Shown here: positions 12,619 to 64,000 of the stretch, in pieces
Layout of the letters: each line of letters begins with the position of its first letter
Position numbering within the stretch: the first letter of the stretch is position 1
The notes under the pieces: generated by a model
What the model was told of the DNA's origin: nothing
What the model saw: only the letters and a program-made list of their open reading frames with translations
Databases searched by the model: none
DNA from: Fidelibacterota bacterium
GTDB taxonomy: Bacteria; Fidelibacterota; Marinisomatia; SCGC-AAA003-L08; TS1B11
NCBI GenBank assembly: GCA_020354025.1
Contig: CP070638.1
Span: forward strand, 2,840,578 to 2,904,577
Direction: 5' to 3'
DNA length: 64,000 bases
Program-made: the position numbers and the translations under genes

Positions 12619-15600
12619 ATGAATATTCATCTTAGAAAGCTATTCTCTCATACCCTGGTTCCAGTGTTATTCCTTGTTTCTGCGAGTATTCTCTTTGCTG
12701 ACTCCAGCGGGAAAATATCTGGCAGAGTGTACGATGCCGAGACTAATGAACCATTGCCGGGAGCGAACGTCGTCATCGAGGGCACGACAATGGGTGCCGC
12801 CGCGGATATAGACGGCAACTACTTCATCCTTAATGTTCGGCCGGGGGAATATACGGTCACGGCGTCTGTTATCGGTTATGTAAATGTTAGAGCTACCGAA
12901 GTAGCAGTTCAGATGGGACTGACCACTCCGCTGGACTTCCCTCTTGATCCCTCAATAATTGAGGGTGAAGAAGTAGTGGTCGTTGCCGAACGGCCAATTA
13001 TTCAGACTGATATCGGGAACAGCAGAACCATTCTGGATGGCTCCGAATTGACGGCGCTACCGGTAGTCAGTTTCAAAGACATCCTGGATAAGCAAATGGG
13101 CATTCAAGAGATGGATGCGCGGGGACTTTTCATGCGTGGTGAACGTCAGGATGGGATCAGCATGGTGGTCGATGGAATGGAGACCCGGGACAATGTGGAT
13201 GATCTGGTCTATACGCGCTTCAATCCTGATGAAATGGAACAGGTTGAAATCAGTGCTGGTGGCTACGATGCTTCCTCAGGGAATGCCACTGCGGGGGTGA
13301 TCAATCTGGTAACCAAGGAAGGCGGGAACAGACTGACCGGCACCTTCGACTACCGCTTGTCCCAACCAGGCCGCAAGCATTTCGGCCCCCCGCTCAAGGA
13401 TTACTGGGACGAGCATATCCTGGAAGCCTGGTCCAACGATTCGATCCCGTACAAGTGGACGCGACCAGGTCCAGACGGCAATCCGGTTACTGTCGATACG
13501 GTTGTGAATACCTGGTCAAAAAAGGCTCATACTGTAAGCCAGGGCAGTCCCTATTACGATCACCCGGGCCTGATGCAGGAAGTATACAGGCATTTTATGC
13601 GAGATGAAGCGACGGAATATGGCCAGAATTCGGACATGGTCCTGAGTGCCACTTTAGGTGGCCCGGTACTGAAAAACACCACCTTCTTCTCTTCGTTCCG
13701 GAGAGAGAAAAACTATTATCTATATCCCGGGCCCCTGGATCATTACTCAGACCAAAACGGTATGATCAAAATAACAACTAAGCCCACAAAGTCCATCAAG
13801 ATGTCGCTAACCGCCCGCTACACAGAATCGACCGGACTGAACCGCTACGATTATTACCGCGGGGAGTCCCAGAGAGGTGACCTGGGAGCTACTGATCCGG
13901 ATTATCAGACGGAAAAAAGATATATGTTCGAGGGCGTGGAGCAGGTGGCCTGGTCGGGGTATGGCGCCTGGCCCTATACGGCGAATATCGGGCAGTGTAC
14001 CCGATACCGGAACCAGTATGGATTCACTCTTTCTCATCAACTAAGTCCGCGGACATTCTACGAGTTGAAAATATTAAGGAATCTCGTGGAAACTGAGGGA
14101 AGTCAGACCGCCCTCCGGGATACCACCCTGGAGGTAACGCTGACCGATCCCAACGATCCTACCGCAACCGTAACGCTCAAGGGTCCCCTGGCGGAGGCGC
14201 CGCTGGGATTCTGGGAGACTACGGTGGCTAACATCCTGGAATGGCCCATGGGTGGCAGTTACGGATACGAGGAGAACAACTCCGCTAAAGACTTGACGAT
14301 CAGGGCGAATATTACCAGCCAGGTGAACGACCACAACCAGCTCAATTTCGGTATCGAATACGTGTCCTACGAGATTAAAAAGGAAGAGTACCGAAATACG
14401 CTCGATAGAATGGGTAAATGGCTCTGGGACGTGAAACCCAGGAATGCTGCCGTATGGTTGATCGACAATCTTACGTTTGAGGGCGCGGTAATCAACGCCA
14501 GTGTCCGTGCCAATATCAGGATTCCGGATGAATGGCATAATTGGAAAAGTAATCCCTATCATCCCGTCTGGGCATGGACCGGCACGGTACCTGGTGACAG
14601 CGCAGGTATCGAGGACTGGTACCAGCCCCCGCTAAAAGTGGCCGTCGCACCGCGACTCAGCATTTCCCATCCCATCGGTGAAACCGCCAAAATATTCTTC
14701 AATTGGGGACACTACTATCAGGAGCAGCCGTTTGAGCGTCAGTATCTGTATTACCGGAGAGACGCACTATATCAACAACAGTACGGTGATCCGGAGCTGC
14801 CCTTCAAGAAGGCCATACAATACGAAATCGGCTACGAGCATAACATCGCCAATGTCGTTCGCGTCGCCCTCTCCGGTTTCTATAAGGATGTTAAGAACCT
14901 ACTGGTGGATCGCATCGGGTTCCGTGAAATCGGTTACACTGCCGAATACGCTAATCTGTATACTTATGGTCCCAATCGCTACATGACCAGCCAGGGTCTT
15001 GAGGCCCGGCTGGAGAAGAGGCAGGGGCGATATATGACCGCGTGGTTCAACTACAGCCTGCAGATCTACAGTCGCGGCATATATGGCTTCACGACATTCT
15101 ACGAGGATTCCACCAGATCGCCAGCTGAATTTGATTATGTTGAGGAGAATGTCGAACGCCCATCGGAGTCGCGCTTCAATCTGGGGATCGATTTTCATAC
15201 ACCCGCCGGATTCGGTCCCGGTCTGCTGGGCTTTCATCCGGCCGGGGATATTGATCTGAACTTTCTCCTGTGGTGGAGGCAGCAGCCGACCGACAGCTAC
15301 AATCCCAGCCAGGCCGAACCACCTTATGAGCCGCGTAACAATGTACGCTGGAAACCACACTGGGCTATCAACATGACCTTTAAGAAGCGCTTCGACTTCG
15401 GTCGATACGTGGTACCCGTATTTTACGTAGAGGTATACAACCTGTTGAATACCAAGAACATGTGGCGAGGTGCCTTCAATGAAAAGGATGCGGCTTTCCT
15501 GGCATACATCGAGGCCCTGGAGGAAGAAGGGGGCCAGTTGGGTGAAAACGAAGACCTGGCCAGGGAAGCCATCGGTAACAATCCGGCCATTCTGTTGCCG

Positions 15601-15675
15601 TTCAACGGGAGCCCGTGGTTCCTGTATTTAAATCCTCGTCAGATCTGGGCCGGGATCAGATTTGAATTCAGATGA
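12619..15675 (+). CDS. TonB-dependent outer-membrane receptor with N-terminal carboxypeptidase-like domain
   Basis: This 1018-residue protein has a signal peptide ending after Ala27. Residues about 31-115 form a CarboxypepD_reg-like domain (GKISGRVYDAETNEPLPGAN and GNYFILNVRPGEY). A plug domain follows at about 130-240, with the MRGERQDG and VDGMETRD segments, and then a long outer-membrane beta-barrel. The layout is SusC-like, but no SusD-like lipoprotein gene follows. The next genes are a T9SS-type cargo protein and a PorV-like protein instead. It probably imports oligosaccharides or another large ligand with energy from TonB-ExbBD, which is not in the window. The ATG has GGAAAGAGG about ten bases upstream. 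The substrate is inferred from the surrounding enzymes. Confidence 0.92.
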   Translation: MNIHLRKLFSHTLVPVLFLVSASILFADSSGKISGRVYDAETNEPLPGANVVIEGTTMGAAADIDGNYFILNVRPGEYTVTASVIGYVNVRATEVAVQMGLTTPLDFPLDPSIIEGEEVVVVAERPIIQTDIGNSRTILDGSELTALPVVSFKDILDKQMGIQEMDARGLFMRGERQDGISMVVDGMETRDNVDDLVYTRFNPDEMEQVEISAGGYDASSGNATAGVINLVTKEGGNRLTGTFDYRLSQPGRKHFGPPLKDYWDEHILEAWSNDSIPYKWTRPGPDGNPVTVDTVVNTWSKKAHTVSQGSPYYDHPGLMQEVYRHFMRDEATEYGQNSDMVLSATLGGPVLKNTTFFSSFRREKNYYLYPGPLDHYSDQNGMIKITTKPTKSIKMSLTARYTESTGLNRYDYYRGESQRGDLGATDPDYQTEKRYMFEGVEQVAWSGYGAWPYTANIGQCTRYRNQYGFTLSHQLSPRTFYELKILRNLVETEGSQTALRDTTLEVTLTDPNDPTATVTLKGPLAEAPLGFWETTVANILEWPMGGSYGYEENNSAKDLTIRANITSQVNDHNQLNFGIEYVSYEIKKEEYRNTLDRMGKWLWDVKPRNAAVWLIDNLTFEGAVINASVRANIRIPDEWHNWKSNPYHPVWAWTGTVPGDSAGIEDWYQPPLKVAVAPRLSISHPIGETAKIFFNWGHYYQEQPFERQYLYYRRDALYQQQYGDPELPFKKAIQYEIGYEHNIANVVRVALSGFYKDVKNLLVDRIGFREIGYTAEYANLYTYGPNRYMTSQGLEARLEKRQGRYMTAWFNYSLQIYSRGIYGFTTFYEDSTRSPAEFDYVEENVERPSESRFNLGIDFHTPAGFGPGLLGFHPAGDIDLNFLLWWRQQPTDSYNPSQAEPPYEPRNNVRWKPHWAINMTFKKRFDFGRYVVPVFYVEVYNLLNTKNMWRGAFNEKDAAFLAYIEALEEEGGQLGENEDLAREAIGNNPAILLPFNGSPWFLYLNPRQIWAGIRFEFR

Positions 15676-15761
15676 TGAACCTGGTCTGTTATCAGCTAAA
15701 GGCAGGGAAACTGATCATTGTACGACTCATGTCGAAGTAACAATCGGGGGATCGGGTAAAA

Positions 15762-17993
15762 GTGAACGAGAATAATATCCGGCAGCTATTCCGTTGGATT
15801 ACCGTGATAGTGATAGTCGGCGCACCATTCGCAGCTGAGGCACAGACCCACACCATGGAGATCGGTGCTGGCCAGTTTCGACTTGCAGTTGCCAGCCTGA
15901 TGACCCACAGGGGTGAGCGCCTGACTTATCCGTATGAGTACCGGGCGTATCAGGCCAAACACCGCTATATGCGCCGCAAGTGCGCCGAGGGCGGTGGTGT
16001 AATAGTCGCCGCCAGGGACTTTCAGGCCAAAGCCTATTACGCCAGAGAAAAGGCTGATCCGGCTGATTGGACTGTCGCCGATACGCTGCTGCCGTACGTG
16101 GTGGCTGACGCCACGGGCTGGTATACGTATGATATGAATCATACCACCGTACCGGTTGATGGCGGCGCGAGGAGATACTGGCGACAGCGTCCCACGATCA
16201 AGATAGTGAATAATGTTGATCGTTCGACCAGTAACCCAGACCAGAAATGGACCGATGGCAAGGACTTTGACGGCCCTGCCGATATGCCCACCGACCAGAT
16301 GGGTGTCGCCACGGTCCATACTTACATAGGTATTTCCATAACCGAACGCGCCTACGTGTTCGACAATGGCGAATTCGCGATTGTCGAATTCGTATTTAAG
16401 AATACCGGGAAAACCGGAAGCAATTACGATGACGGCCAGGAGATCACCTACAGCGATTCGGTAAAAGGCGCCTATGTAGGGATAAAAATGCGTCCGGTTC
16501 TCGCCAATGAGGATGTGGTGGAGAATTCCGGGGGCTGGACGGAAGGGACCGATGATTGGGTTTCCTACACCGAGACCGAAGATGGAGACCAGCTTCGAGT
16601 GGTGTATGGCTGGGACGGCGATGCCGGTGATTATTACCGAGCTGAGGAGGATGAAGGAGATCCCTACCTTGGCTCTTCCGGTGTTCTCACGGCTTCTCAG
16701 TATCCGGGAATGGCGGTGCTCCATGCCGACAGGTCGGTAAATGATCACACCGATGATCCTGACCAGCCGCATCGTTTCTATGCCTCCTGGGGGGGCACCT
16801 TCAGCCCCAACATCCTGACGATGGGGAGAGACCTATCCTTTGCGGACATCTATCAAATATTGGATGAAGGACCAGATTCTCCCGAGCCATTTGACTGGAC
16901 TGGTTGGAAGAACGCCGGTTCTCCCGAAGTTGAGGATCAGTTCTGGACCGGGTATAATACACCCCATGCGACCGACGAGAACCGTTACAACCAATGTGGG
17001 ACACTGGCATTCGGGCCCTACGACTTCGGCATCGATGACAGTGTTCGAATCGTTCTATGTTATTCGGCGGGAACAATCAATTGGGAAAGCGCCATAAACG
17101 TGGGTGCCGAATATGTTGAGGGCACGATATCCAAAGGCCAGAAGAACGTGATACTGCGCAGCGGCCGGGATTCCCTGTTTACCAAGATCAAGTGGGTCCA
17201 GGAGCTGTTTAATGACCGTTTTGCTAGCAATGACGGCGACCTCTATTTGACACTACAGCAGATCAGTGAGGAGATCGGGGTACCGCCGGCCTGGCCCGAT
17301 AACATGACCCAAAACCCGGTTGTAGGTGGCTGCCGGATTGAATGGTCCCCTGTAGATGGTGCCCAGGCCTACCGGGTGTATCGGCGGGACCAGGTGGATT
17401 TTGACCTTTCCGAGCCGGTACCAACGGTCTATTCTCTTGTATACCAGTGTGGCGGCGCGGATCCCGGAGGTAGCGTGGAATATTCACCTACGATAGGTGC
17501 AACGGCATGGGTGGATAGTTCGGTATTTCCGGTATATAACTACTGGTATTATGTAACAGCGATCGGCGACGACGGTACAGAGAGCAGTCATTTCATCGGC
17601 CGTACATGGCCGAAATCTACCGATTATATATATGGCTCGATTCAACCCTACGACCGGGAACGGGAGAATCTGGATGATGTCCACATCATTCCCAATCCAT
17701 ACAATGCTAAATCGTTGAAAGTATATGATTGGCCGCAAGACAAGCTGACCTTCTATGGTCTTCCCGCCAACTGCCGGATTCGAATCTACTCGCAGAACGG
17801 CGTGCTCGTCTTTAAGCACAATCACGCATCGGAGGGCGATTTACCGGTCTCCAACTTTAACTGGGATATGAGGTCTGCGTCGGACCAGACTATCGCTTCC
17901 GGCATGTACATCTATGTAATCGATCAGTGTCGGGGGTACAGCGGCGAAGAGATTGAAGCCACAAAAGCGGGCAAGTTCGTAGTGATCAGATAG
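15762..17993 (+). CDS. Secreted protein with FN3-like region and T9SS-like C-terminal domain
   Basis: This is a 743-residue exported protein of unknown function. The signal peptide ends after Ala27 (AEA|QTH). The bulk, residues 30-510, matches no family I can name. It is rich in acidic and aromatic residues and begins with THTMEIGAGQFRL. Residues about 515-620 look like a fibronectin type III fold (RIEWSPVDGAQAYRVYRR). The C-terminus from about 650 has IIPNPYNAKSL and SGMYIYVID, ending in GKFVVIR. This is a variant T9SS sorting tail seen in deep FCB lineages. It starts with GTG 86 bases after the TonB receptor and precedes the PorV-like gene, so it may be the surface binding partner of the receptor in place of SusD. 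That role is a guess from position. Confidence 0.75.
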   Translation: MNENNIRQLFRWITVIVIVGAPFAAEAQTHTMEIGAGQFRLAVASLMTHRGERLTYPYEYRAYQAKHRYMRRKCAEGGGVIVAARDFQAKAYYAREKADPADWTVADTLLPYVVADATGWYTYDMNHTTVPVDGGARRYWRQRPTIKIVNNVDRSTSNPDQKWTDGKDFDGPADMPTDQMGVATVHTYIGISITERAYVFDNGEFAIVEFVFKNTGKTGSNYDDGQEITYSDSVKGAYVGIKMRPVLANEDVVENSGGWTEGTDDWVSYTETEDGDQLRVVYGWDGDAGDYYRAEEDEGDPYLGSSGVLTASQYPGMAVLHADRSVNDHTDDPDQPHRFYASWGGTFSPNILTMGRDLSFADIYQILDEGPDSPEPFDWTGWKNAGSPEVEDQFWTGYNTPHATDENRYNQCGTLAFGPYDFGIDDSVRIVLCYSAGTINWESAINVGAEYVEGTISKGQKNVILRSGRDSLFTKIKWVQELFNDRFASNDGDLYLTLQQISEEIGVPPAWPDNMTQNPVVGGCRIEWSPVDGAQAYRVYRRDQVDFDLSEPVPTVYSLVYQCGGADPGGSVEYSPTIGATAWVDSSVFPVYNYWYYVTAIGDDGTESSHFIGRTWPKSTDYIYGSIQPYDRERENLDDVHIIPNPYNAKSLKVYDWPQDKLTFYGLPANCRIRIYSQNGVLVFKHNHASEGDLPVSNFNWDMRSASDQTIASGMYIYVIDQCRGYSGEEIEATKAGKFVVIR

Positions 17994-18048
17994 TCGTCGT
18001 TATGCTAGTTTTCTCAGAACCTGTCCTGAAATCAGGAGAAGTCAATCG

Positions 18049-19113
18049 ATGAAGTGCAGTTTAGTAACGATCGTAATTGCTGTCATTATTACCACCGGTT
18101 CGTATCAGGCTCAGGATGAATATCTGGATGTGGAAGAATACGAGAAGCTGGGTCAATCCAGCATGACCTTCCTGGATATCGACGTCGGCGCCCGGTCGGT
18201 TGGAATGGGAAGCGCATATACCTGCATTGATAATGATGTGAACGCACTGTTCGGGAATCTCGCTGGAATCGCCAGGATCAGAGGTGGAGCATTAAGCCTG
18301 AGCAACACACAGTGGATAGCCGACATAAACCAGTATGCCGTCGCGGCCGCTTTCGGCGGCGACAGATTCGGTACTCTCGGCTTCAGTTTTGTTTATTTTG
18401 ATAACGGTGATATTGAGAGGACGATACCCACCAAAGACCTTGAGAATTATCCGGAAGGATTCTATCCTGATGGGACCTTCACTGTTAATCAGTGGGTGGC
18501 CGGCATAGCCTATGGCCGCCAGATTACCGATAAGTTCTCCGTCGGCGGGCAGCTGAAATACTGCTATGAGGATCTGGGCATTACGGATATCAAGGAACCC
18601 ACATTCGATGACTCGAGCGGTCTGTTCATCGGGTATGAACTTATTGAGGACGCTGAGAACAGGCTAGGTGTTCTGGCGCTTGATTTCGGCACTATATATT
18701 ATTTCGGCTTCAAGGACCTGAGAATTGGCATGAGTCTCCGGAACTTCGCTAAATCGGTTACCTACTCATTTGAGACTTTTAGCCTCCCCATAACCTACCG
18801 TGTAGCTATTGCCATGAACATATTGAGTCTGATGCCGCAGATGGAGAACCACAACCTGCAAGTGTCATTGGCTACCGTCAGTCCGTACGATGGCGGAGAA
18901 AGGCTGCATCTCGGAGGCGAATACAGTTTTTATGATCTGATCGTGTTCCGCGCCGGGTACCGGTCCAATACTGATATCGGTGCTTTCTCGGCCGGTTTCG
19001 GACTGACACCCAAGGCCTTCGGATCATTGAAATTTCAGCTGGACTATTCCTATTCCGAGGCTGATGAGGCCATCGGTGCCATATCCCGTTTCTCGGCCGG
19101 GTTTTCCTTCTAG
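18049..19113 (+). CDS. PorV/PorQ family outer-membrane protein
   Basis: This 354-residue protein has a signal peptide and a beta-barrel pattern. After the leader it reads FLDIDVGARSVGMGSAYTC and NDVNALFGNLAGIARI, the conserved N-terminal signature of PorV/PorQ (UPF0164) proteins. The rest alternates short beta strands and ends in FSAGFSF, a typical outer-membrane C-terminus. PorV helps T9SS cargo leave the translocon and reach the attachment complex. In FCB genomes, paralogues often sit beside TonB receptors and surface proteins, as here. AGGAG ten bases before the ATG supports the start. Since the core T9SS genes are not in the window, this is probably an accessory, cargo-specific copy. Confidence 0.88.
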   Translation: MKCSLVTIVIAVIITTGSYQAQDEYLDVEEYEKLGQSSMTFLDIDVGARSVGMGSAYTCIDNDVNALFGNLAGIARIRGGALSLSNTQWIADINQYAVAAAFGGDRFGTLGFSFVYFDNGDIERTIPTKDLENYPEGFYPDGTFTVNQWVAGIAYGRQITDKFSVGGQLKYCYEDLGITDIKEPTFDDSSGLFIGYELIEDAENRLGVLALDFGTIYYFGFKDLRIGMSLRNFAKSVTYSFETFSLPITYRVAIAMNILSLMPQMENHNLQVSLATVSPYDGGERLHLGGEYSFYDLIVFRAGYRSNTDIGAFSAGFGLTPKAFGSLKFQLDYSYSEADEAIGAISRFSAGFSF

Positions 19114-19223
19114 CGGAAATTTTGCATACGGGAGAGGGCAGAAAAGAGTATTTCAGAACAATTCACGTCGGGAAAAGGACTCCTGAGCGTGAGTGCTAGT
19201 GGAACAAAAAAAGGAGCGAGAAA

Positions 19224-20642
19224 ATGAAGAAAGTGTTACTTTGCATCTTCGCACTGTGTCTCGTGGGCACTGGTGGAATCTTTGCTCAGGAGACGCATCA
19301 GCTATCTCCGGGCACCGACGTGATTTCCGCCCTGCTTGATGGAGGTACCGTTTACGAGGGCGACATTCTAGAGCTCGCCGATGGTACTTACATCGAATCA
19401 GACAGTGTTCTGACGCCGTTTGCCCTGACCATCCGGGGTGCTGAAGGTGCCCGAGTAAAATGGTATGTGGCCGACAGTATCGACGCAATCTATGCCGGTG
19501 GTGACATAACCCTCGAGAATATTATCTTCGAGACTGACACCACCACCCCCTGGACGTTCGAAGTCGATACTTTGGTCGCCACCGCCAACAGCAACGTTGC
19601 CATCCAACCTCGTCTTGACACTGTCAACATCAAGGTAGATTACTGCCAGTTCATCGGTTTCGGATACGGAATCGGAGCAGATGGGGATTTTCCAGGATCA
19701 GAGGTCCTGATTGATAGCCTGATAGTGACCAACAGTCTATTCTACGGGGGGCCCAGGTTCAAAACCTATCAAGCCATCAAGGTCGATTACAACTATCTAC
19801 ATGTGCTGAACGTGCAGAATTGCACCTTCTGGAGGGTGGAGGGCGAGTGTATCAAAGCCTACGGCTCAGAAACGGACAATGAATACTTACACGCCCTGGT
19901 GGAGCATAACACCTTCGTGGACATTGGATTTCCCGGGCTCGAACAATACGGAATCCATTACAAGTATGATCCCACGAAGAACGGCGTCGGAATGTACCTG
20001 AAGTATACCAGCAATGACGATACATTAAGGAATAATATCTTCTATGATGTCGCCGATTTCAGCATCAAGCTGGCTAGTGGCCTCTTTGAAGCCACCTACA
20101 TGGACTACAACACCTCCGACTCTTCCGGGTGGGGATGTAGTACATGCGCCGATTGGCATCCCAAACATGGTGATCTGGGTATGTACAACATCGCCTCCAA
20201 TGGTGTGCTGCTGATGACCGATTCCGACAACGGAGATTTCACTCTCGGGACCGGATCAGTGGCGATCGGCGCCGCACATGATGGGTCTGACCAAGGCAGC
20301 AGTATAACCATCTGGGCTCCGGGTAACCCGGTTTCAGTTGAGGAAGCCAGTCTCACAATTCCAGAGGCCTTCGCTTTGCGGCAGAACTATCCCAATCCGT
20401 TCAACCCGTCCACCAGGATTACTTATTCCATTCTGGAGGGCGCGTCTGTAAAACTGGATGTCTATGATATTCTAGGTCGCAAGATCCGCACCCTGGTAAA
20501 CGAAGTGCAGAATCCCAATACCTATACGCTGGTATGGGATGGTCTGGACGATGATGGGAGTTTGGTCTCAGGTGGGGTTTACTTCTACAGACTACAAGCC
20601 GGAACTTCGGTCGAGACAAGGAAAATGGTCCTCCTCAAGTAA
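19224..20642 (+). CDS. Secreted right-handed beta-helix protein with T9SS sorting domain
   Basis: This 472-residue protein begins with a clear signal peptide ending near FAQ (residue 22). Residues about 30-370 look like a parallel beta-helix of the chondroitinase-B or polysaccharide-lyase type: a pattern of GGTVYEGDILELADGTY, IRGAEGARVKW, and later NNIFYDVADFSIKLASG strands with polar turns. Residues about 385-472 form a type A T9SS sorting domain with NYPNPFNPST, GGVYFYRLQAG and TRKMVLLK. The beta-helix suggests polysaccharide binding or lysis, but I cannot point to catalytic residues. The gene is the last of the TonB receptor block and is followed by two strong terminators. Confidence 0.82.
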   Translation: MKKVLLCIFALCLVGTGGIFAQETHQLSPGTDVISALLDGGTVYEGDILELADGTYIESDSVLTPFALTIRGAEGARVKWYVADSIDAIYAGGDITLENIIFETDTTTPWTFEVDTLVATANSNVAIQPRLDTVNIKVDYCQFIGFGYGIGADGDFPGSEVLIDSLIVTNSLFYGGPRFKTYQAIKVDYNYLHVLNVQNCTFWRVEGECIKAYGSETDNEYLHALVEHNTFVDIGFPGLEQYGIHYKYDPTKNGVGMYLKYTSNDDTLRNNIFYDVADFSIKLASGLFEATYMDYNTSDSSGWGCSTCADWHPKHGDLGMYNIASNGVLLMTDSDNGDFTLGTGSVAIGAAHDGSDQGSSITIWAPGNPVSVEEASLTIPEAFALRQNYPNPFNPSTRITYSILEGASVKLDVYDILGRKIRTLVNEVQNPNTYTLVWDGLDDDGSLVSGGVYFYRLQAGTSVETRKMVLLK

Positions 20643-20650
20643 CGAGGTGC

Positions 20651-20696
20651 ATCTTCGGGGGTTGTGGAGCCCTCTGCAGCCCCTGAAGATTGTTTT
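20651..20696 (+). terminator. Intrinsic terminator 1 after the beta-helix gene
   Basis: Bases 20651-20664 pair with 20677-20690 in a 14-base-pair stem with two G-U pairs and a 12-base loop, followed by TGTTTT. The stem begins ATCTTCGGGG and closes with CCCCTGAAGAT. It lies eight bases past the TAA stop, where an intrinsic terminator is expected. Confidence 0.82.
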
Positions 20697-26632: not shown

Positions 26633-27694
26633 ATGGAGGTCACCATAAACTGTATCAAATATTCGCTACTGCCGATGTTGGGCGCAGCACTGCTGATTGT
26701 CGGCTGTGCCGAGAAGAAGCCTGATTTCGCCGCCTTTGAGAAGATCGATGGACACCTGCATATCCGCTATAACGGCCCCGAATTCCTGGAGCAGGCGATG
26801 GCGGACAATTTCAGGGTGGTTGTTATTTTCACCGACGCTTATGATATTGACTGGCAGCAAGAGTTTGTCGATCACCAGCGAGGGATGTTCCCCGAGCAGT
26901 TCGAGTATCTGACGACCTTTCCCATGAAGGGGTGGGATGAGACGGATTGGCAGGAGAAGACCATCGCGCATCTAAGAGAGGCATTCGAAAAAGGGGCTAT
27001 CGGGGTGAAGATCTGGAAGGATGTGGGCATGGAGTTCAAAGACAGGGACGGCAATTTCGTTATGCTCGACGATCCCCAATTCGATCCGGTGATCGACTTT
27101 ATCGAATCGGAGGGGAAAACCCTCACGGCCCACATCGGCGAGCCCCGGGACTGCTGGCTGCCGCTGGATGAAATGCTCGGATCCAGCAACCGGGACTATT
27201 TCGCGGCTCATCCAGAATACCACATGTACCTGCACCCGGAATTCCCGGCCTACGAGGAGCACATCCAGGCCTATGAGCGAATGCTGGAGAAGCATCCAGA
27301 TCTGCGGTATGTGGGTTGTCACCTCGGGAGCCTGGAATGGAGCGTGGAAGAACTGTCCAAAAGGCTGGACCGCTTCCCCAATACGGCCGTGGACCTGGCG
27401 GAGAGGGTTGACGATCTGCAGATCATTGACAGCGACAAGGTCCGGCAGTTCTTCATCGACTATCAGGACCGTCTCATCTATGCCACCGACTTCAGTATCA
27501 ACGAGGAGCATGATCCGACAGCCTATACCCGGCACATGCACGAGACCTGGATGCAGGACTGGATATATTTCACCACCGACAGCATCCTGACCATTCCGGG
27601 AATTAATGAGCCGGTGCGCGGACTAGATCTACCAGTGGAGGTGTTGGCAAAGATTTATCGCGAGAATGCGAAGAAATGGTACCCCGAGCTTTGA
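26633..27694 (+). CDS. Amidohydrolase_2 family metal-dependent hydrolase, lipoprotein
   Basis: This 353-residue protein has a lipoprotein signal (LLIVGCAEKK) followed by an amidohydrolase TIM barrel. IDGHLHIR near residue 41 supplies the first two histidine ligands. HIGEPRD near 166, VGCHLGSLEW near 228 and IYATDFS near 289 supply the later histidines and aspartate. These are PF04909 features. Members hydrolyse or decarboxylate ring compounds, and some open lactones. In this locus a sugar lactone is a reasonable but unproven substrate. The start at 26633 lacks a Shine-Dalgarno sequence upstream, and a GGAGGT motif lies just inside the frame, so the true start may be slightly downstream. The gene follows GH88 by 95 bases. 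Confidence 0.82.
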   Translation: MEVTINCIKYSLLPMLGAALLIVGCAEKKPDFAAFEKIDGHLHIRYNGPEFLEQAMADNFRVVVIFTDAYDIDWQQEFVDHQRGMFPEQFEYLTTFPMKGWDETDWQEKTIAHLREAFEKGAIGVKIWKDVGMEFKDRDGNFVMLDDPQFDPVIDFIESEGKTLTAHIGEPRDCWLPLDEMLGSSNRDYFAAHPEYHMYLHPEFPAYEEHIQAYERMLEKHPDLRYVGCHLGSLEWSVEELSKRLDRFPNTAVDLAERVDDLQIIDSDKVRQFFIDYQDRLIYATDFSINEEHDPTAYTRHMHETWMQDWIYFTTDSILTIPGINEPVRGLDLPVEVLAKIYRENAKKWYPEL

Positions 27695-27753
27695 CGGCAA
27701 AGCCAGGTGTTTTTCATCGTGAACGATCGTCTGATAACCACAAGGAGAGCAAA

Positions 27754-30700
27754 TTGAAAACTCGGCGCTTTATCACTATCGGTCTAGTATGTCTCCTGGC
27801 GGGATGCGCGACCAGGGACTCGGTCCGGACGTGGGAGGAGCAGCTGGTCATGCCCACCTGGGAAATCGGCCCACCGGAGGCTAACCCGAGTTTTTCCTGG
27901 AGCTCGCCTCGCAGGCCGGTCTATCCTTACATGTATAAGGAGCTGCTCACCAATAACCGGCAGGACAAAGTCTACACCGCCTGCTGGTTGGAGAATGAGT
28001 TTATCAAGGTACTGGTACTGCCCGAAATCGGTGGGCGGCTGCACGGAGCCCGGGACAAGACCAACGACTATAACTTTTTCTACTGGCAACCCTCCGTAAA
28101 GCCCGCTCTTATCGGCATGACGGGGGCCTGGATCTCCGGCGGCATTGAGTGGAATTTCCCCTACGGTCACCGCCCAACCGGCTTCAGCCCGGTAAGTTAC
28201 CGGCTGGTAGAGAATAAGGACGGGAGCAAAACTGTCTGGGTCGGCGAGACGGAGTGGGTAAATCGGATGCGCTGGATTGTCGGCCTGACGGTCTACCCGG
28301 GCAAAAGCATCATTGAGGCTCAGGTGAAACTGATGAATCCCGCACCGATCCATCACTCGTATTACATGTGGGCCACCACCGCGGTGAATGCCAACGAGAA
28401 CTATCAGGCCATCTATCCCACCCGGCTGATGACCGAACACGGCAAGTTCGAGTTTTTCCGCTGGCCAATCCACAACGGTGTAGACATTTCGTGGTGGAAG
28501 AATATCCCCAACGCTTCCAGCTTCTTCGCTGTCGAACGGGGCGACTTCTTCGGTGGTTATGACCACGGCAAACAGGCGGGTACCATTCTGACCGGGAACA
28601 AGAATATCGTAATCGGTAAGAAGCTGTGGAGCTGGGGCACCTCACCTTTCGGCCGCATGTGGGAGCCCATTCTCACCGAAGACCAGGGGCCGTATCTGGA
28701 GCCGCAGGCGGGGGCTTTCGCCGACAATCAGCCGGACAACCACTGGCTGGAGCCCGGCGAAGTCAAGTCTTTCAGCTTTTTCTTCTACCCGGTGCGTGAT
28801 ATCGGTGCCTTCAAACAGGCTAACATCGACGGAGCTCTAAACCTGGAATTCAACGGGGATACGGTCGAAATCGGCGTCTATTCCACAGCGGTGCTGAAGC
28901 CCGGAACCATCCGCCTGAAGCATGGCAGTGATGTCATCCTTGAGGAGAAGGTCAACATCGATCCCTCCCAGCCCTTTATGCACCAACTGGAAGTCAAGGA
29001 CGCCGCGGACTCCCGGGAAGATTTCCGGCTGTGCCTGCTGGACGAGGCGGGCACCGAACTGGTATCCTACTCGCCGGAGATTCCGGAAGAGCTGCCATTT
29101 CCCGAACCGGCACCGGTGTACGGTCCTCCGGAGACCATCGCATCTGTCGATGAGCTCTGGGAGATCGGCGATTTCAAGAGCAAGTATAAGTACCTCGACC
29201 GGCGGGCGGGCTTCGATGATTATTTCAAGGAAGCCTTGCGGCGGGACCCAGGCCATGCTCCCTCCCACATCGCACTGGCGGAATGGGACATCAAGCGGGC
29301 TGATTACCGTTCCGCTCTCAGCCACCTGAAAACCGCGGAGCGACGCAGTCCTGATAACGGAAAAGTATATTACCTACAGGCGGTGGCTGAAGAAGCCCTA
29401 GGCGACTACGAGGCGGCCTATAACCATTATTATCGTGCGGTCCACTTCCAGCAGTTCCTATCGCGGGGATATCAGTGTCTCGCCCGGTTGGATCTACGCC
29501 GAGGAGACTTCCACAAGGCCCGTGTCCACAGCAGTAAGGCGATCGAAGCCAATACTCTCAATCCACAGCTATGGGCGCTCAAGGCGACGGTCATGAGACT
29601 GGAGGGTGAGCCGGAGGAAGCAGCCGCGGCCGCTAAGCGAGCGCTGGCCCTGGACCCGGTCAATTTCCATGCCTTGAACGAGCTGCTTCTAGCCGAGCAG
29701 ATCCAGGGCAAATCCGGGGGCACGCTGGAGGACAAGCTGAAACAGGTCCTACTGAACGATCCCCACTGCTACATAGAACTGGCGCTGCACTATCTCAACG
29801 CCGGCCTATATGAAGATGCAGCCGAAGTGCTCGAGCGGATTGAAGAAGACGAGCAATCCCGGAGTGCTCTTACCGGGTATTACCACGCCTACTGCCAGGC
29901 CGCGTTAGGCCATAGCGAAGAAGCCGCCCGCCTGTTCAAGGAGGCCGCAGAGCGCCAGGTTGATTACAGCTTCCCCTTCCGGCTGGAAGCGATAGAAATG
30001 TTCCGAACCGCTCTGGAGATCAATCCCGATGACGGCCGGGCCCATTATTTCCTGGGTCTGGTCTATGGTGGAATCGGCGAAGTTGAGAGTGCGATGGCCC
30101 ATTGGCGACTGGCAGTACGGATTGAACCCGAAAACGCGCGGGCCTGGAGAAACCTAGGCCTGGCAAACCTAAACGTCAGTAGGGACCTACAGGCTGCCAG
30201 GCAGTGCTATGAAAAGGCGTTCGAGCTGTTGCCGACCGACTCCAGGATTCTACTGGAGCTGGATCAGGTGAAGCAAGCCCGGAAGGAAAGTGCAGCCGAG
30301 AGGCTGGCCTTCCTGCGGGAACACCGGGAAGTAGTGGAAGGACGGGATGAGCTACTGACATCAATGCTGGACCTGATGGTCCGGCAAGGGGATTTCGAGG
30401 AGGCATTGGAGTATTATATGAGTCATCACTTCCACAACTGGGAAGGCAGCTACTCGATCCATAACGCCTATATGGAAGCCAACATCGGTATGTCCCGAAG
30501 AGCCGAGTCGCCCGCGAAGGCATTGGAGTGCTACCAGCGAGCCTGTGAGTACCCGGCCAACCTGGAGGTAGCTCCCCGCGAACCGAACCTGCGGGGATTC
30601 CTGTACTATCCCATGGCGTTGCTTCACCGGCAGCTGGGTAATGACCATGTTGCCGACAGCCTACTGGTCGTAACGGCCACTGAAGCCTCCGAGATGCCCA

Positions 30701-31008
30701 CCTTGGGAAGCTTCCATCAGGCGCTGGCCTTGCGAGAACTAGGCCGGTCCGGAGAGGCCGATCGAGTACTTGGAGCATTAGAGCGCGAAGCCCGGCAGCT
30801 TCTGGGCGGTGACCGCAGTGGCTACGAGCGCCAGGACGAGGATTTCCTCCAAGCCCTTGGGCATTACTATCTCTCGAAGGTCCATGAGGCCAATGGGCGC
30901 AAGAGCGAGGCCCGCAGAGCGCTGGATGTGGCGATCGCCAGGCGGTCACTGATCGAACGGGAAGCGCTGATATTCGCGCAGATCAACTTTGCGGGGGCTC
31001 ATCAGTAG
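27754..31008 (+). CDS. DUF5107 and TPR lipoprotein
   Basis: This protein has about 1084 residues. CAAGGAG seven bases before TTG at 27754 and the lipoprotein leader that follows (LVCLLAGCATRDS) fix the start. An in-frame upstream ATG at 27676 overlaps the previous gene and would bury the leader. The first half, to about residue 440, carries DUF5107 features: VLPEIGGRLHGARD, SGGIEWNFPYGHRP and GDFFGGYDHGKQ, a beta-rich fold. The second half is a long chain of tetratricopeptide repeats from about 470 to the end, with NPDDGRAHYFLGLVYGGIGE and similar units. The first domain resembles aldose-epimerase or glycosidase beta-sandwiches in general style, but its activity is not known to me. The TPR array suggests a scaffold or partner role in the periplasm. 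Confidence 0.85.
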   Translation: MKTRRFITIGLVCLLAGCATRDSVRTWEEQLVMPTWEIGPPEANPSFSWSSPRRPVYPYMYKELLTNNRQDKVYTACWLENEFIKVLVLPEIGGRLHGARDKTNDYNFFYWQPSVKPALIGMTGAWISGGIEWNFPYGHRPTGFSPVSYRLVENKDGSKTVWVGETEWVNRMRWIVGLTVYPGKSIIEAQVKLMNPAPIHHSYYMWATTAVNANENYQAIYPTRLMTEHGKFEFFRWPIHNGVDISWWKNIPNASSFFAVERGDFFGGYDHGKQAGTILTGNKNIVIGKKLWSWGTSPFGRMWEPILTEDQGPYLEPQAGAFADNQPDNHWLEPGEVKSFSFFFYPVRDIGAFKQANIDGALNLEFNGDTVEIGVYSTAVLKPGTIRLKHGSDVILEEKVNIDPSQPFMHQLEVKDAADSREDFRLCLLDEAGTELVSYSPEIPEELPFPEPAPVYGPPETIASVDELWEIGDFKSKYKYLDRRAGFDDYFKEALRRDPGHAPSHIALAEWDIKRADYRSALSHLKTAERRSPDNGKVYYLQAVAEEALGDYEAAYNHYYRAVHFQQFLSRGYQCLARLDLRRGDFHKARVHSSKAIEANTLNPQLWALKATVMRLEGEPEEAAAAAKRALALDPVNFHALNELLLAEQIQGKSGGTLEDKLKQVLLNDPHCYIELALHYLNAGLYEDAAEVLERIEEDEQSRSALTGYYHAYCQAALGHSEEAARLFKEAAERQVDYSFPFRLEAIEMFRTALEINPDDGRAHYFLGLVYGGIGEVESAMAHWRLAVRIEPENARAWRNLGLANLNVSRDLQAARQCYEKAFELLPTDSRILLELDQVKQARKESAAERLAFLREHREVVEGRDELLTSMLDLMVRQGDFEEALEYYMSHHFHNWEGSYSIHNAYMEANIGMSRRAESPAKALECYQRACEYPANLEVAPREPNLRGFLYYPMALLHRQLGNDHVADSLLVVTATEASEMPTLGSFHQALALRELGRSGEADRVLGALEREARQLLGGDRSGYERQDEDFLQALGHYYLSKVHEANGRKSEARRALDVAIARRSLIEREALIFAQINFAGAHQ

Positions 31009-31083
31009 GCCGGGCCGTGACAGGAGTGTTGAAATTAACCCGATGGCCGCTGAATCAGTGGTCGAGCTGTAAGGACTAAACCA

Positions 31084-34083
31084 ATGTTTAATTTTCGAGG
31101 CGCTCGCTTTTTCCTGATTTCGTTTATCAGCCTGAGCACATGCCTGGGGCAAGAAACCATCTGGCGACCCGTAGACCCAGGGGGAATGGGCTGGCTGATG
31201 TTTCCTTCTATCCATCCCACAACGGGGCATTTATATTTTTCCTCTGACATGAGTCTGTCCTTGATGAGAAGTACCGACCGGGCCGAGACCTGGGAGCCTA
31301 TCGCCAATCCCATTCCAGGTACTGCATTCTATGTAGCAGGTTCCCCCAGCGAACCGGGCACACTCTACATGAATCAGCTGGGCGAGACGCCCAAGGCCTC
31401 CGGCATCTGGAAGAGCATCGATAACGGCGATACCTGGGTGCAGCTCTATTGCAGCGATGAGTTCGGCATCAGTCGCAGCCAGTCGGGGGCAGTCGATCCG
31501 GATAACAGCGAGGTCATATACTGGACCGTGGCTGATTTCGGGGTCCATCGTTCAGTTGACGGGGGCCATTCGTGGCAGGACGTGAGCCGTGGCCTACCGC
31601 TGGAAGAGCTGGCGCACCCGGTCAAACACTGCCACACCCTTGAGATTGATCACAACAGCCCGCCGGATCATCGACGGATCTACTATCCCACCAGCCAGGG
31701 TCTGTACCGGATGGAGGAACCGGATGGTGAGTGGCGGCCGGTTCCCGGTCTGCCGGAGGAGGTCTGCAGTGACGTGGAAATTTGCGACGGCGGTGTCATT
31801 TACGCTGCCTTTCCCGGCCTGGGTCTTTACCGCAGCCGGGATGATGCGCGGACCTGGGCCAAGCTTGAGAACGGGCTGGACGGTAAGACACCGTTCCAGG
31901 TAGAGGCTACCAGCAGCCGGCCCGATATCGTCTATATCGCCGCCGTCAGGGACGAGGGCATCTATGGCAGCCGGGACGGGGGTGAGTCATTCGAGCTTCT
32001 GACCCACCGGCGGTTCAATGCCAAGAATAACTGGAAGATGAACTACCGGCAGCACGAGGCCGTATCCGGCCAGATCATGTTCGTTGATCCCAACGATCCT
32101 AATACCCTGATCCTCGATTACAACAAGAAGACCAGCGACGGCGGCCGGACCTGGCAGCACTACGGGCTGAAGGAAGTCCGGCGCGACCGCTATATCGGTA
32201 CCGGCATGACCCTGCTGACCGACTACCGGGTAGTGTTCGACCCAAACCGGCCGCGCATCGTCTGGATGGGATTCTCCGACACCGGGCTGATGCTCTCTGA
32301 GGATGGTGGTGAAAGCATCATCAACCTGATCTCGTTCCATCGAGGGGAGGTGAATCAGGCCGCCTACTGGCGAAATAAGCTGGTGCATACCTCCGGCTCC
32401 TGCGTGTCCATGACGGTGGATCCCGATCTATCCACTACCATCTACGCCTCCATCAACGGCAAGAATGCGAACAACCGGGCGGCGGTCGGCGGGGCCATTA
32501 TCAAGTCAGTGGACGGCGGCTGGAACTGGACTCCAATCTACGAAGAGCATGGGCTGGACGACGGCATCGTCCGTTCGATAGTCATTGATCCTTCCTCCCC
32601 GGTCCATGCCCGAACTGTCTATGCGGCCAGCTACGGCAACGGTGTGTATAAGAGTATCAATGACGGCCGCAGCTTCAAGCGAATCACTCCCCTGAGGATG
32701 TTCAAGGGCAACACCCGGCTGATGTGGCTCGAGATGGCGCCTTCTGACCCGCAGACGCTCTATCTGGCAGTAGGAGGCACGGATGGATTGCGGCCTATCT
32801 ATATCGGGCCGGACGCCTACCCGGCTCTGAAACCCGGCCAGCACGGGGGGGTTTTCAAGACCACCGACGGCGGCCGCTCCTGGGACAAGCTCAACAGCAC
32901 CCGCGAAATTCCCAGCGTGCAGGATATCGCCGTGCATCCTTCGAATGCGGATATAGTCTACGTGGCAGCCTGTCATGAGGATTACCTGGTTCCGGAGGAT
33001 GCGGGGCACCCGGAATGGAAGGAGGGGGGTGTTTATCGGTCCCTGGACGGCGGCCAGAACTGGGAGTTGGTGTTTGATCCACCCGAGGACGACCTACGAG
33101 GCCGGGGAGAAGTGGAAGGTGTATGCATCAACCCGGTGGCCCCGGAGATCATATATGCAGCCGTCAAGCGCTATGGAATCTATCGCACCTTCGATGGCGG
33201 CGACACCTGGGAAACGGTGGGTCACACTTCCATGGAGCGCATGCAGAGGCGATATCATTCCATCGATATCGATCCGCATGATCCCTCCGAAGTCTGGCTG
33301 GCGCACTTCGGGAATTCCTTCTCCAAAGGTACCGATTATAAAGCCCGGGAGTACTTGCTGGAAAAGTTTAAGGGCGCCAATTTCCTGCGCAATCCCGGAT
33401 TCGAGGAGTTGGGCGAGTCCGGCCGACCGCTGCACTGGAAAGTGGAACAGCCCCCCGCTCCGCGGGGAGAAAAACCCGTGTTCTCGATCAGCTCAACCCA
33501 GGCAAGTGGCGGCAAATACTCCGCCCGATTTCACCTCACCCAGGCTTACCCTGATGCGCCTACCCGTATCCCGGCCCGGCGGGAGCAGCTCCACCTGGAA
33601 AAAGCCGGCAAAATCCCGGTGGATGAAGGGTGGCAAGCCCGGCTCGACCAGAGGCCGGCGGGAGAGACCAACACCTGGATATATCAGAAGATCGATCCCT
33701 ATTTCACCACGTTGATGCGGGGAAAGCGGGTAGTCGTAGAAATGGATGTGTTTATCGTGGAGCGGAACCTGCCCACGCACTGGAGTCGCGGTTCGGAAGC
33801 CGGGGAGATACCCCGCGACCCACCCCAGGTTTACCTGACAGAAGTCAGGGACTACAACGTACACTGGCTGGTGGCAGAGACTTCGCTGGAGGACCTGGAG
33901 CCGGCATTCAATATCCCTGCATCGGAAATGAAGGGTAAGTGGTATCGTTGCAGCGCGAGCGGGACTGTAACCGAGGATGCACTCTGGCTGCGGGTGACCG
34001 TGACCGGGGCAGGCGAAATTTCGGGTCCGATGAACCTTTACGTGGATAACGTGAGCCTCAGCCTGGCTGAGCGAAAGGATTGA
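31084..34083 (+). CDS. Secreted Asp-box (BNR/sortilin-type) beta-propeller protein with C-terminal CBM-like domain
   Basis: This 999-residue protein has a short signal peptide (ending near LGQ). Residues about 25-730 hold at least seven Asp-box motifs of the S-x-D-x-G-x-T/S-W kind, for example SIDNGDTW, SVDGGHSW, SRDGGESF, TTDGGRSW, SLDGGQNW and TFDGGDTW. They are arranged as in VPS10/sortilin or GH74-like double propellers. Residues about 760-995 look like a CBM4/9-type jelly roll: FLRNPGFEELGESGRPLHW, then SGGKYSARFHL and LYVDNVSLSL. The protein may bind or cut a glycan. GH74 xyloglucanases share the fold, but I cannot identify catalytic aspartates with confidence. It follows DUF5107-TPR by 75 bases and precedes a thioredoxin-like lipoprotein. 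Confidence 0.82.
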   Translation: MFNFRGARFFLISFISLSTCLGQETIWRPVDPGGMGWLMFPSIHPTTGHLYFSSDMSLSLMRSTDRAETWEPIANPIPGTAFYVAGSPSEPGTLYMNQLGETPKASGIWKSIDNGDTWVQLYCSDEFGISRSQSGAVDPDNSEVIYWTVADFGVHRSVDGGHSWQDVSRGLPLEELAHPVKHCHTLEIDHNSPPDHRRIYYPTSQGLYRMEEPDGEWRPVPGLPEEVCSDVEICDGGVIYAAFPGLGLYRSRDDARTWAKLENGLDGKTPFQVEATSSRPDIVYIAAVRDEGIYGSRDGGESFELLTHRRFNAKNNWKMNYRQHEAVSGQIMFVDPNDPNTLILDYNKKTSDGGRTWQHYGLKEVRRDRYIGTGMTLLTDYRVVFDPNRPRIVWMGFSDTGLMLSEDGGESIINLISFHRGEVNQAAYWRNKLVHTSGSCVSMTVDPDLSTTIYASINGKNANNRAAVGGAIIKSVDGGWNWTPIYEEHGLDDGIVRSIVIDPSSPVHARTVYAASYGNGVYKSINDGRSFKRITPLRMFKGNTRLMWLEMAPSDPQTLYLAVGGTDGLRPIYIGPDAYPALKPGQHGGVFKTTDGGRSWDKLNSTREIPSVQDIAVHPSNADIVYVAACHEDYLVPEDAGHPEWKEGGVYRSLDGGQNWELVFDPPEDDLRGRGEVEGVCINPVAPEIIYAAVKRYGIYRTFDGGDTWETVGHTSMERMQRRYHSIDIDPHDPSEVWLAHFGNSFSKGTDYKAREYLLEKFKGANFLRNPGFEELGESGRPLHWKVEQPPAPRGEKPVFSISSTQASGGKYSARFHLTQAYPDAPTRIPARREQLHLEKAGKIPVDEGWQARLDQRPAGETNTWIYQKIDPYFTTLMRGKRVVVEMDVFIVERNLPTHWSRGSEAGEIPRDPPQVYLTEVRDYNVHWLVAETSLEDLEPAFNIPASEMKGKWYRCSASGTVTEDALWLRVTVTGAGEISGPMNLYVDNVSLSLAERKD

Positions 34084-63687: not shown

Positions 63688-64000
63688 TTAAAACGCGAAC
63701 ATAATCGCAAAGCGATTGACATCAGAAAAAAAATCCATATTCGAATAGGAATAGCTGATATTTGCATTTATGCCCATGATACTGTATAGTATTCCGAATC
63801 CGCCTGACCATCCTTTCACATCGTGATTGGTGACATAGCCTGCTCTGAGAGAAACCATGGCGTCAAAAGTAAAATCTAGCCCCATATGCAAACGCTCAGT
63901 ATAATTATTGGGATGAGTAAATTCCATCGAAGCCAACAATGAGGTTTTATCGTCATGATAGGGATTTATGAAATCCATAACATCAATGACTCCCCCCACT
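63688..64000 (-). CDS. PorV/PorQ-like outer-membrane protein, C-terminal part only
   Basis: Only the last 104 or so codons lie in the window; the gene continues past the right edge and its start is not seen. The readable part alternates beta strands (MEFTHPNNYTERLHMGLDF, SLRAGYVTNHDVKGWSGGFG) and ends with FAIMFAF. This parallels the end of the PorV-like protein at 18-19 kb (the HLGGEYSFYDLIVFRAGYR and GAFSAGFG stretch). It should be an outer-membrane barrel that assists T9SS cargo. The GH28 gene lies 168 bases downstream on the same strand. A codon that looks like a start at the very edge is not the real one. Confidence 0.7.
   Translation of the reverse strand, partial: VGGVIDVMDFINPYHDDKTSLLASMEFTHPNNYTERLHMGLDFTFDAMVSLRAGYVTNHDVKGWSGGFGILYSIMGINANISYSYSNMDFFSDVNRFAIMFAF

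Follow-up and report, generated by a model that had tools for sequence, protein, structure and literature searches.

The analyzed stretch of DNA (64,000 nucleotides, hereafter the window) spans positions 2,840,578–2,904,577 of CP070638.1, the single contig of a 3.40-Mb, 95% complete genome from a Fidelibacterota bacterium, whose phylum is called Neomarinimicrobiota here. Four genes on the plus strand, all in the same orientation and separated by gaps of 86, 55, and 110 bases, encode a TonB-dependent receptor, a 743-residue exported protein (hereafter the cargo) with a tail of the type IX secretion system (T9SS), an outer-membrane barrel of the PorV/PorQ family, and a second exported protein (Table 1); an earlier note on this DNA, made from the letters alone, had described this layout, and all four genes lie where it had placed them. 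The order receptor–cargo–barrel, hereafter the trio, was found seven times in the genome (in the window and in loci L008, L009, L010, L012, L014, and L020/L171), a recurrence that is not attributable to chance.

Table 1 Features of the four-gene region and of the window edge.
Feature	Position	Strand	Basis
TonB-dependent receptor, first trio gene, 1018 aa	12619..15675	+	trio-type receptor model, 1378 bits
CarbopepD_reg_2 (carboxypeptidase-D-like) domain, receptor residues 33–121		+	PF13715, 72.5 bits (cut-off 32.2)
TonB plug, receptor residues 131–227		+	PF07715, 31.4 bits (cut-off 23.9)
Exported protein (cargo), family A1, 743 aa, GTG start	15762..17993	+	leave-one-out model, E 1.6e-85
N-part of the 743-aa protein, ~residues 29–505, conserved across the family	15846..17276	+	family profile
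Fn3-like domain, ~residues 508–617 of the 743-aa protein	17283..17612	+	profile match to 3mpc, E 5.5e-6
PorZ-like T9SS C-terminal domain, ~residues 637–743 of the 743-aa protein, KFVVIR end	17670..17990	+	sequence and fold match to PorZ 5m11
PorV/PorQ-family outer-membrane barrel, 354 aa; presumed shuttle/anchor of the 743-aa protein	18049..19113	+	NF033709, 163.1 bits (cut-off 90)
Exported protein, 472 aa, canonical T9SS tail	19224..20642	+	TIGR04183, 37.8 bits (cut-off 23)
Terminator-like stem-loop, 18 pairs, just 3′ of the fourth gene; longest such in the region	20651..20690	+	
PorV-family gene of a second trio, C-terminal end; the trio continues past the window edge	63688..63999	-	whole trio read in locus L171

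As sole query, the 743-residue protein gave five further matches in the genome, and the seven trios emerged from reading around these and around all PorV-family genes. Alignment A1 contains nine proteins of this genome; two of them (L014 and L020), missed by the single-sequence search, were included on the strength of their position and tail. Leave-out models recovered every member when it was held out, at E 1e-46 or better, and the eight members other than the window protein are 22–34% identical to it. At E 1e-20 or better, the family profile, tail-only matches included, was found in 173 of the 199 genomes of the phylum and in 77 of the 82 genomes of the phylum of a KSB1-titled genome (candidate division KSB1). 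No relative was found in viral contigs, and the one plasmid match was in Rhodothermus marinus, where the annotation of plasmid pRMAR01 lists in order a TonB-dependent receptor, a hypothetical protein, and a PorV/PorQ family protein. These three genes are RMAR_RS14120, RS14115, and RS14110 of the cultured strain DSM 4252. Genes neighboring the cargo were compared in a table of 121 rows, deduplicated by shared 30- or 40-residue stretches, 22 of which were cut at the end of the locus. The 99 readable loci are not a random sample, in that the best matches were obtained as loci and matches below 60 bits were dropped, and in 81 of them the gene directly upstream encoded a receptor and the first or second gene downstream a PorV-family protein (own genome, 7/9; other Neomarinimicrobiota, 54/66; KSB1 group, 19/23; Rhodothermus, 1/1). 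The conservation of gene order that the earlier note proposed to check was observed, and the cargo family did not prove to lie mostly far from TonB receptors among the readable loci, an outcome that would have spoken against that note's reading. The exceptions L061–L063, all from a single genome (G002), have cargos with shortened frames. The cargos measure 700–800 residues (about 700–790 being typical) or, in some cases, 1000–1500 residues. In many Neomarinimicrobiota trios (L085–L091, L095–L102), an extra gene of ~210–350 aa stands between cargo and barrel; among those scanned (L087, L091, and L101), two had no Pfam match and one had a PKD domain.

Analysis of the 743-residue protein revealed, by inspection, a signal-peptide-like hydrophobic N terminus ending in A-E-A-Q, and no lipobox; a lipobox pattern scan of 66 family members gave three matches, all of them C-terminal to the hydrophobic part of the signal and not regarded as lipoboxes. 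The protein matched no Pfam family above cut-off, its sole sub-threshold matches being to T9SS tails. It scored 16 bits against the type A tail model TIGR04183 (cut-off 23, passed by two of the nine family members in the genome) and 26 bits, through its tail only, against the whole-length PorZ model NF052228 (cut-off 260). When the 66 members were compared with NCBIfam, 47 matched NF052228 and 26 the generic type A tail; against Pfam at E 0.01 they matched only tail-type families (CHU_C, FlgD_ig, and Por_Secre_tail), and among solved structures their profile matched PorZ (5m11, E 3.4e-4) and otherwise only Fn3-type domains. The N-part had no Pfam or solved-structure profile match, and no structure-based fold search was made with it. 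The AlphaFold model of the full-length protein, built from six sequences, had a mean predicted local distance difference test score (pLDDT) of 38 and was not used in the fold search. In the model of residues 500–743, built from only five sequences (mean pLDDT 59.6, the tail mostly at about 50–80), the tail aligned with PorZ 5m11 over 80 residues (Z 9.1, root-mean-square deviation (rmsd) 2.5 Å, 26% identity), and the first half (VIA-align) aligned over 83 residues with the Fn3 portion of 4u49 (Z 10.4, rmsd 2.2). The 50 Foldseek matches listed were mostly Fn3-containing, PorZ appearing only in a second-look alignment, at rank 11. By its alignment with PorZ, the modelled tail has the Ig-like fold of known type A C-terminal domains (CTDs). 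In the scanned loci of this genome, the family was sharply separated from other T9SS-tailed proteins (90–127 bits vs 14–30 bits). Among type IX tails, that of the cargo forms a class apart; the T9SS component that it matches best, in sequence and in predicted fold, is PorZ. A type B tail was considered and rejected: the barrel missed the PorP/SprF model, and the tail matches PorZ.

The barrel, which passed the PorV/PorQ family cut-off, stayed below those of the specific models for PorV (NF033710, 59.1 bits; cut-off 250), PorQ (NF033711, 57.3 bits; cut-off 220), and PorP/SprF (TIGR03519, 35.3 bits; cut-off 90.55). A genome-wide search with NF033709 found nine genes over cut-off, seven of them in trios. 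A PorV-family gene lay directly 3′ of 7/9 family members, versus 0/71 other T9SS tails of the same genome (Fisher P 1.1e-8), and the previously suggested dedicated PorV paralogue was thereby borne out, as regards this tail class, in this genome. The genome encodes SprA (737.6 bits; cut-off 200) and the PorU sortase (628.8 bits; cut-off 420), so type IX secretion is available to it. At L016 (22–10454), the neighbor of SprA is a 536-aa protein with a weak T9SS-like tail and a weak match to a family that we take to be a propeller; it is followed by a PorV/PorQ-family gene whose best specific match is PorQ, and the two are possibly the PorZ–PorQ of this lineage. At L012 (11721–13235), a 504-aa BamG-like barrel (NF053685, 47.7 bits, below the cut-off of 250) directly follows the trio barrel.

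To describe the divergence of paralogous trios, patristic distances were compared by Spearman correlation in 33 of the 81 collected trios, representing six genomes and 87 within-genome pairs. The correlation was 0.76 between receptor and cargo N-part, 0.85 between receptor and barrel, 0.71 between cargo N-part and barrel, and 0.48 between tail and barrel, and none of the four values was attained in any of 2000 within-genome permutations. The three genes are inherited together, and paralogous trios co-diverge as units.

The window receptor scored 71 bits against the SusC/RagA model TIGR04056, below the cut-off of 368.25. Five other trio receptors gave similarly low values (L008, 58; L009, 65; L010, 51; L014, 55 bits) or, at L012, no match at E 1e-5; the SusC of L013, as a positive control, scored 735 bits. 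The carboxypeptidase-D-like N-terminal extension and plug, a SusC/RagA trait, are both present in the window receptor above their cut-offs. Of the earlier description as a SusC-like receptor with a carboxypeptidase-like domain, the domain therefore stands, whereas the SusC label is loose as to membership. Genome-wide, two SusD models (PF07980 and PF14322) matched a single gene, at ~3.188 Mb, outside the window and ~0.33 Mb away, in agreement with the claim that the window has no SusD-like gene. This lone SusD gene (L013) adjoins the true SusC, so that a SusD encoded elsewhere and paired with the window receptor, as had been considered, was not found. Within the phylum, PF07980 was present in 26/120 genomes. 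None of the 66 scanned family members had a SusD Pfam match, and hhalign gave a probability of 0.25 percent between the family alignment (A6) and the L013 SusD; by profile comparison, the 743-residue protein is not homologous to SusD.

The trio stands in one large sugar-use region that takes up almost all of the window (7062–63519), with genes for a DeoR regulator, SIS and PfkB proteins, a GatZ aldolase subunit, an SSF symporter, and hydrolases of eight glycoside hydrolase (GH) families (GH2, GH3, GH20, GH28, GH31, GH42, GH78-type, and GH88). LacI or GntR-type sugar regulators lie near other trios (L008, L172, and L106). Pectin- or rhamnogalacturonan-type enzymes (GH28, GH78-type, and GH88) are prominent in the window; together with GH42 they would imply pectin-type glycans (rhamnosylated, uronic-acid-containing, or galactoside) as the sugars used. 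In the same locus, a DUF5107-TPR protein followed by a Sortilin/BNR-repeat protein is encoded at 27676–34083. The fourth gene, whose beta-helix match was just below threshold (25.6 vs 25.9), was rejected as a member of the cassette; the gene 3′ of the barrel varies among loci, so it is not a constant part. Terminator-like sites as a class were not above chance (7 observed, 6.8 expected).

We propose, with a probability of about 0.5, that the first three genes encode a SusCD-like surface importer whose T9SS-delivered partner is kept in place by a barrel of its own, not by a lipid anchor. The receptor would be the TonB-driven pore. The 743-residue protein would be exported by Sec and pass through the SprA translocon, from which its own PorV-type barrel would collect it via the PorZ-like tail; it would then be kept on the barrel with its tail uncut, as PorZ is on PorQ. 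At the cell surface, it may cap or feed the receptor and capture glycan, thus doing the job of SusD without lipid anchoring. The earlier note had put forward the 743-residue protein as a possible surface substrate-binding partner delivered by a dedicated PorV paralogue; this is partly supported, by the gene order, the dedicated barrel, the pairing of the lone SusD with its own SusC, and the sugar locus. More tentatively, TonB receptors across several phyla of the Fibrobacteres–Chlorobi–Bacteroidetes (FCB) group might obtain a substrate-catching lid via the T9SS, with the PorV-type shuttle remaining as a permanent subunit and anchor of the importer.

Several observations weigh against this importer. 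Co-divergence is also expected from the co-inheritance of linked genes. A specific co-evolution of barrel and tail was not supported: given the N-part, their partial correlation, from a short tail alignment, was close to nil (0.08), and a contact of tail and barrel in particular cannot be read from these data. The N-terminal ~480 residues of the 743-residue protein have no recognized fold. Incomplete sets also occur: two tandem family members of this genome (L011, 8252–12827) have neither receptor nor barrel, a family member of another genome (L053) has a barrel and no adjoining receptor, and a trio-type receptor (617 bits; L169, 7816–10806) adjoins neither cargo nor barrel. By analogy with orphan type B cargos, described as sharing one shuttle (PMC12618676), we would guess that the L011 pair uses a barrel in trans. 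This pair stands near CstA and a radical-SAM SPASM protein.

The lone cargos of L011, the receptor-less pair of L053, and the variation of cargo length between 700 and 1500 aa would all be accommodated if cargo and barrel were a surface pair (an adhesin, enzyme scaffold, or sensor) that is merely co-regulated with the receptor, with no three-part complex. We regard this as unlikely, since the receptor is the direct upstream neighbor in most readable loci across phyla and its distances follow those of the cargo within genomes; moreover, the third gene of the Flavobacterium johnsoniae operons of type B cargo and PorP described in PMC12618676 encodes a homologue of PorE and not a receptor. A more doubtful alternative keeps the receptor as a working partner and makes the barrel a transient shuttle: PorU, which the genome encodes, would cut the tail, as reported for Porphyromonas gingivalis type A tails after handling by PorV (PMC5562754, PMC10202324), and the receptor would work with cargo attached or released like any other T9SS cargo. 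However, none of the 71 ordinary T9SS tails has a neighboring barrel, so that the barrel next to tails of this class hints at a particular requirement, and the cargo tail resembles that of PorZ, which is reported to keep its tail (PMC5121618). Very improbable, finally, is a role of the PorV-family protein as a FadL-type channel through which a hydrophobic solute would pass, with the cargo as its accessory and T9SS delivery incidental. The barrel does have a weak Toluene_X/FadL Pfam match (14.5 bits, below the cut-off of 29.7), but it passes the PorV/PorQ family cut-off (163 vs 90 bits) and is tied to a T9SS-tailed neighbor.

If the importer proposed here is real, export and import machines share a part, and a type IX shuttle serves as a structural subunit of a nutrient importer. 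Neomarinimicrobiota and KSB1-type bacteria with few or no SusD genes (SusD having been counted in Neomarinimicrobiota alone) would then have a mechanism of sugar capture, a function would be assigned to a large family whose members are at present annotated as hypothetical proteins, and PorV/PorQ annotations could be read as part of uptake loci. Many natural cargo–barrel pairs would also be at hand for testing the proposal, made in a review, that cognate PorV-like barrels shield tails from sortase cleavage (PMC10202324). The literature searched, which did not cover subscription papers and preprints, yielded no paper on the trio.

Compared with SusC–SusD (RagA–RagB), the trio likewise places a TonB receptor with a carboxypeptidase-like N-terminal domain beside a gene for a large exported protein, among glycoside hydrolases and sugar regulators. 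The differences lie in a receptor that falls below the SusC/RagA cut-off and in its partner, a protein with a T9SS tail and no lipobox that profile comparison separates from SusD and whose gene precedes that of a PorV-family barrel. PorZ of P. gingivalis is described as T9SS-secreted with its CTD intact (PMC5121618), and PorZ–PorQ and PorU–PorV as 1:1 pairs (PMC5562754). The trio is like these pairs in combining a T9SS-exported protein that has a PorZ-like tail with a PorV/PorQ-family barrel; it differs from PorZ–PorQ in the N-part of the cargo, which has no match to the PorZ propellers (only the tail matches), and in being present many times per genome, every time next to a TonB receptor. Type B cargos of F. 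johnsoniae are reported to be commonly encoded with a PorP/SprF shuttle directly downstream, the pairing of tail and shuttle setting the destination of the cargo (PMC12618676, PMC9143113). The trio shares with SprB–SprF and Fjoh_3952–Fjoh_3951 (type B CTD with PorP/SprF) the shuttle gene directly 3′ of the cargo and the dedicated pairing, but it has a type A-like tail and a PorV-family barrel, with a TonB receptor, not PorE, as the third partner. What is new would be a TonB import system in which the partner is delivered by type IX secretion and associated with a barrel; this system resembles SusCD and PorZ–PorQ in its presumed working but, by the membership tests made, belongs to neither.

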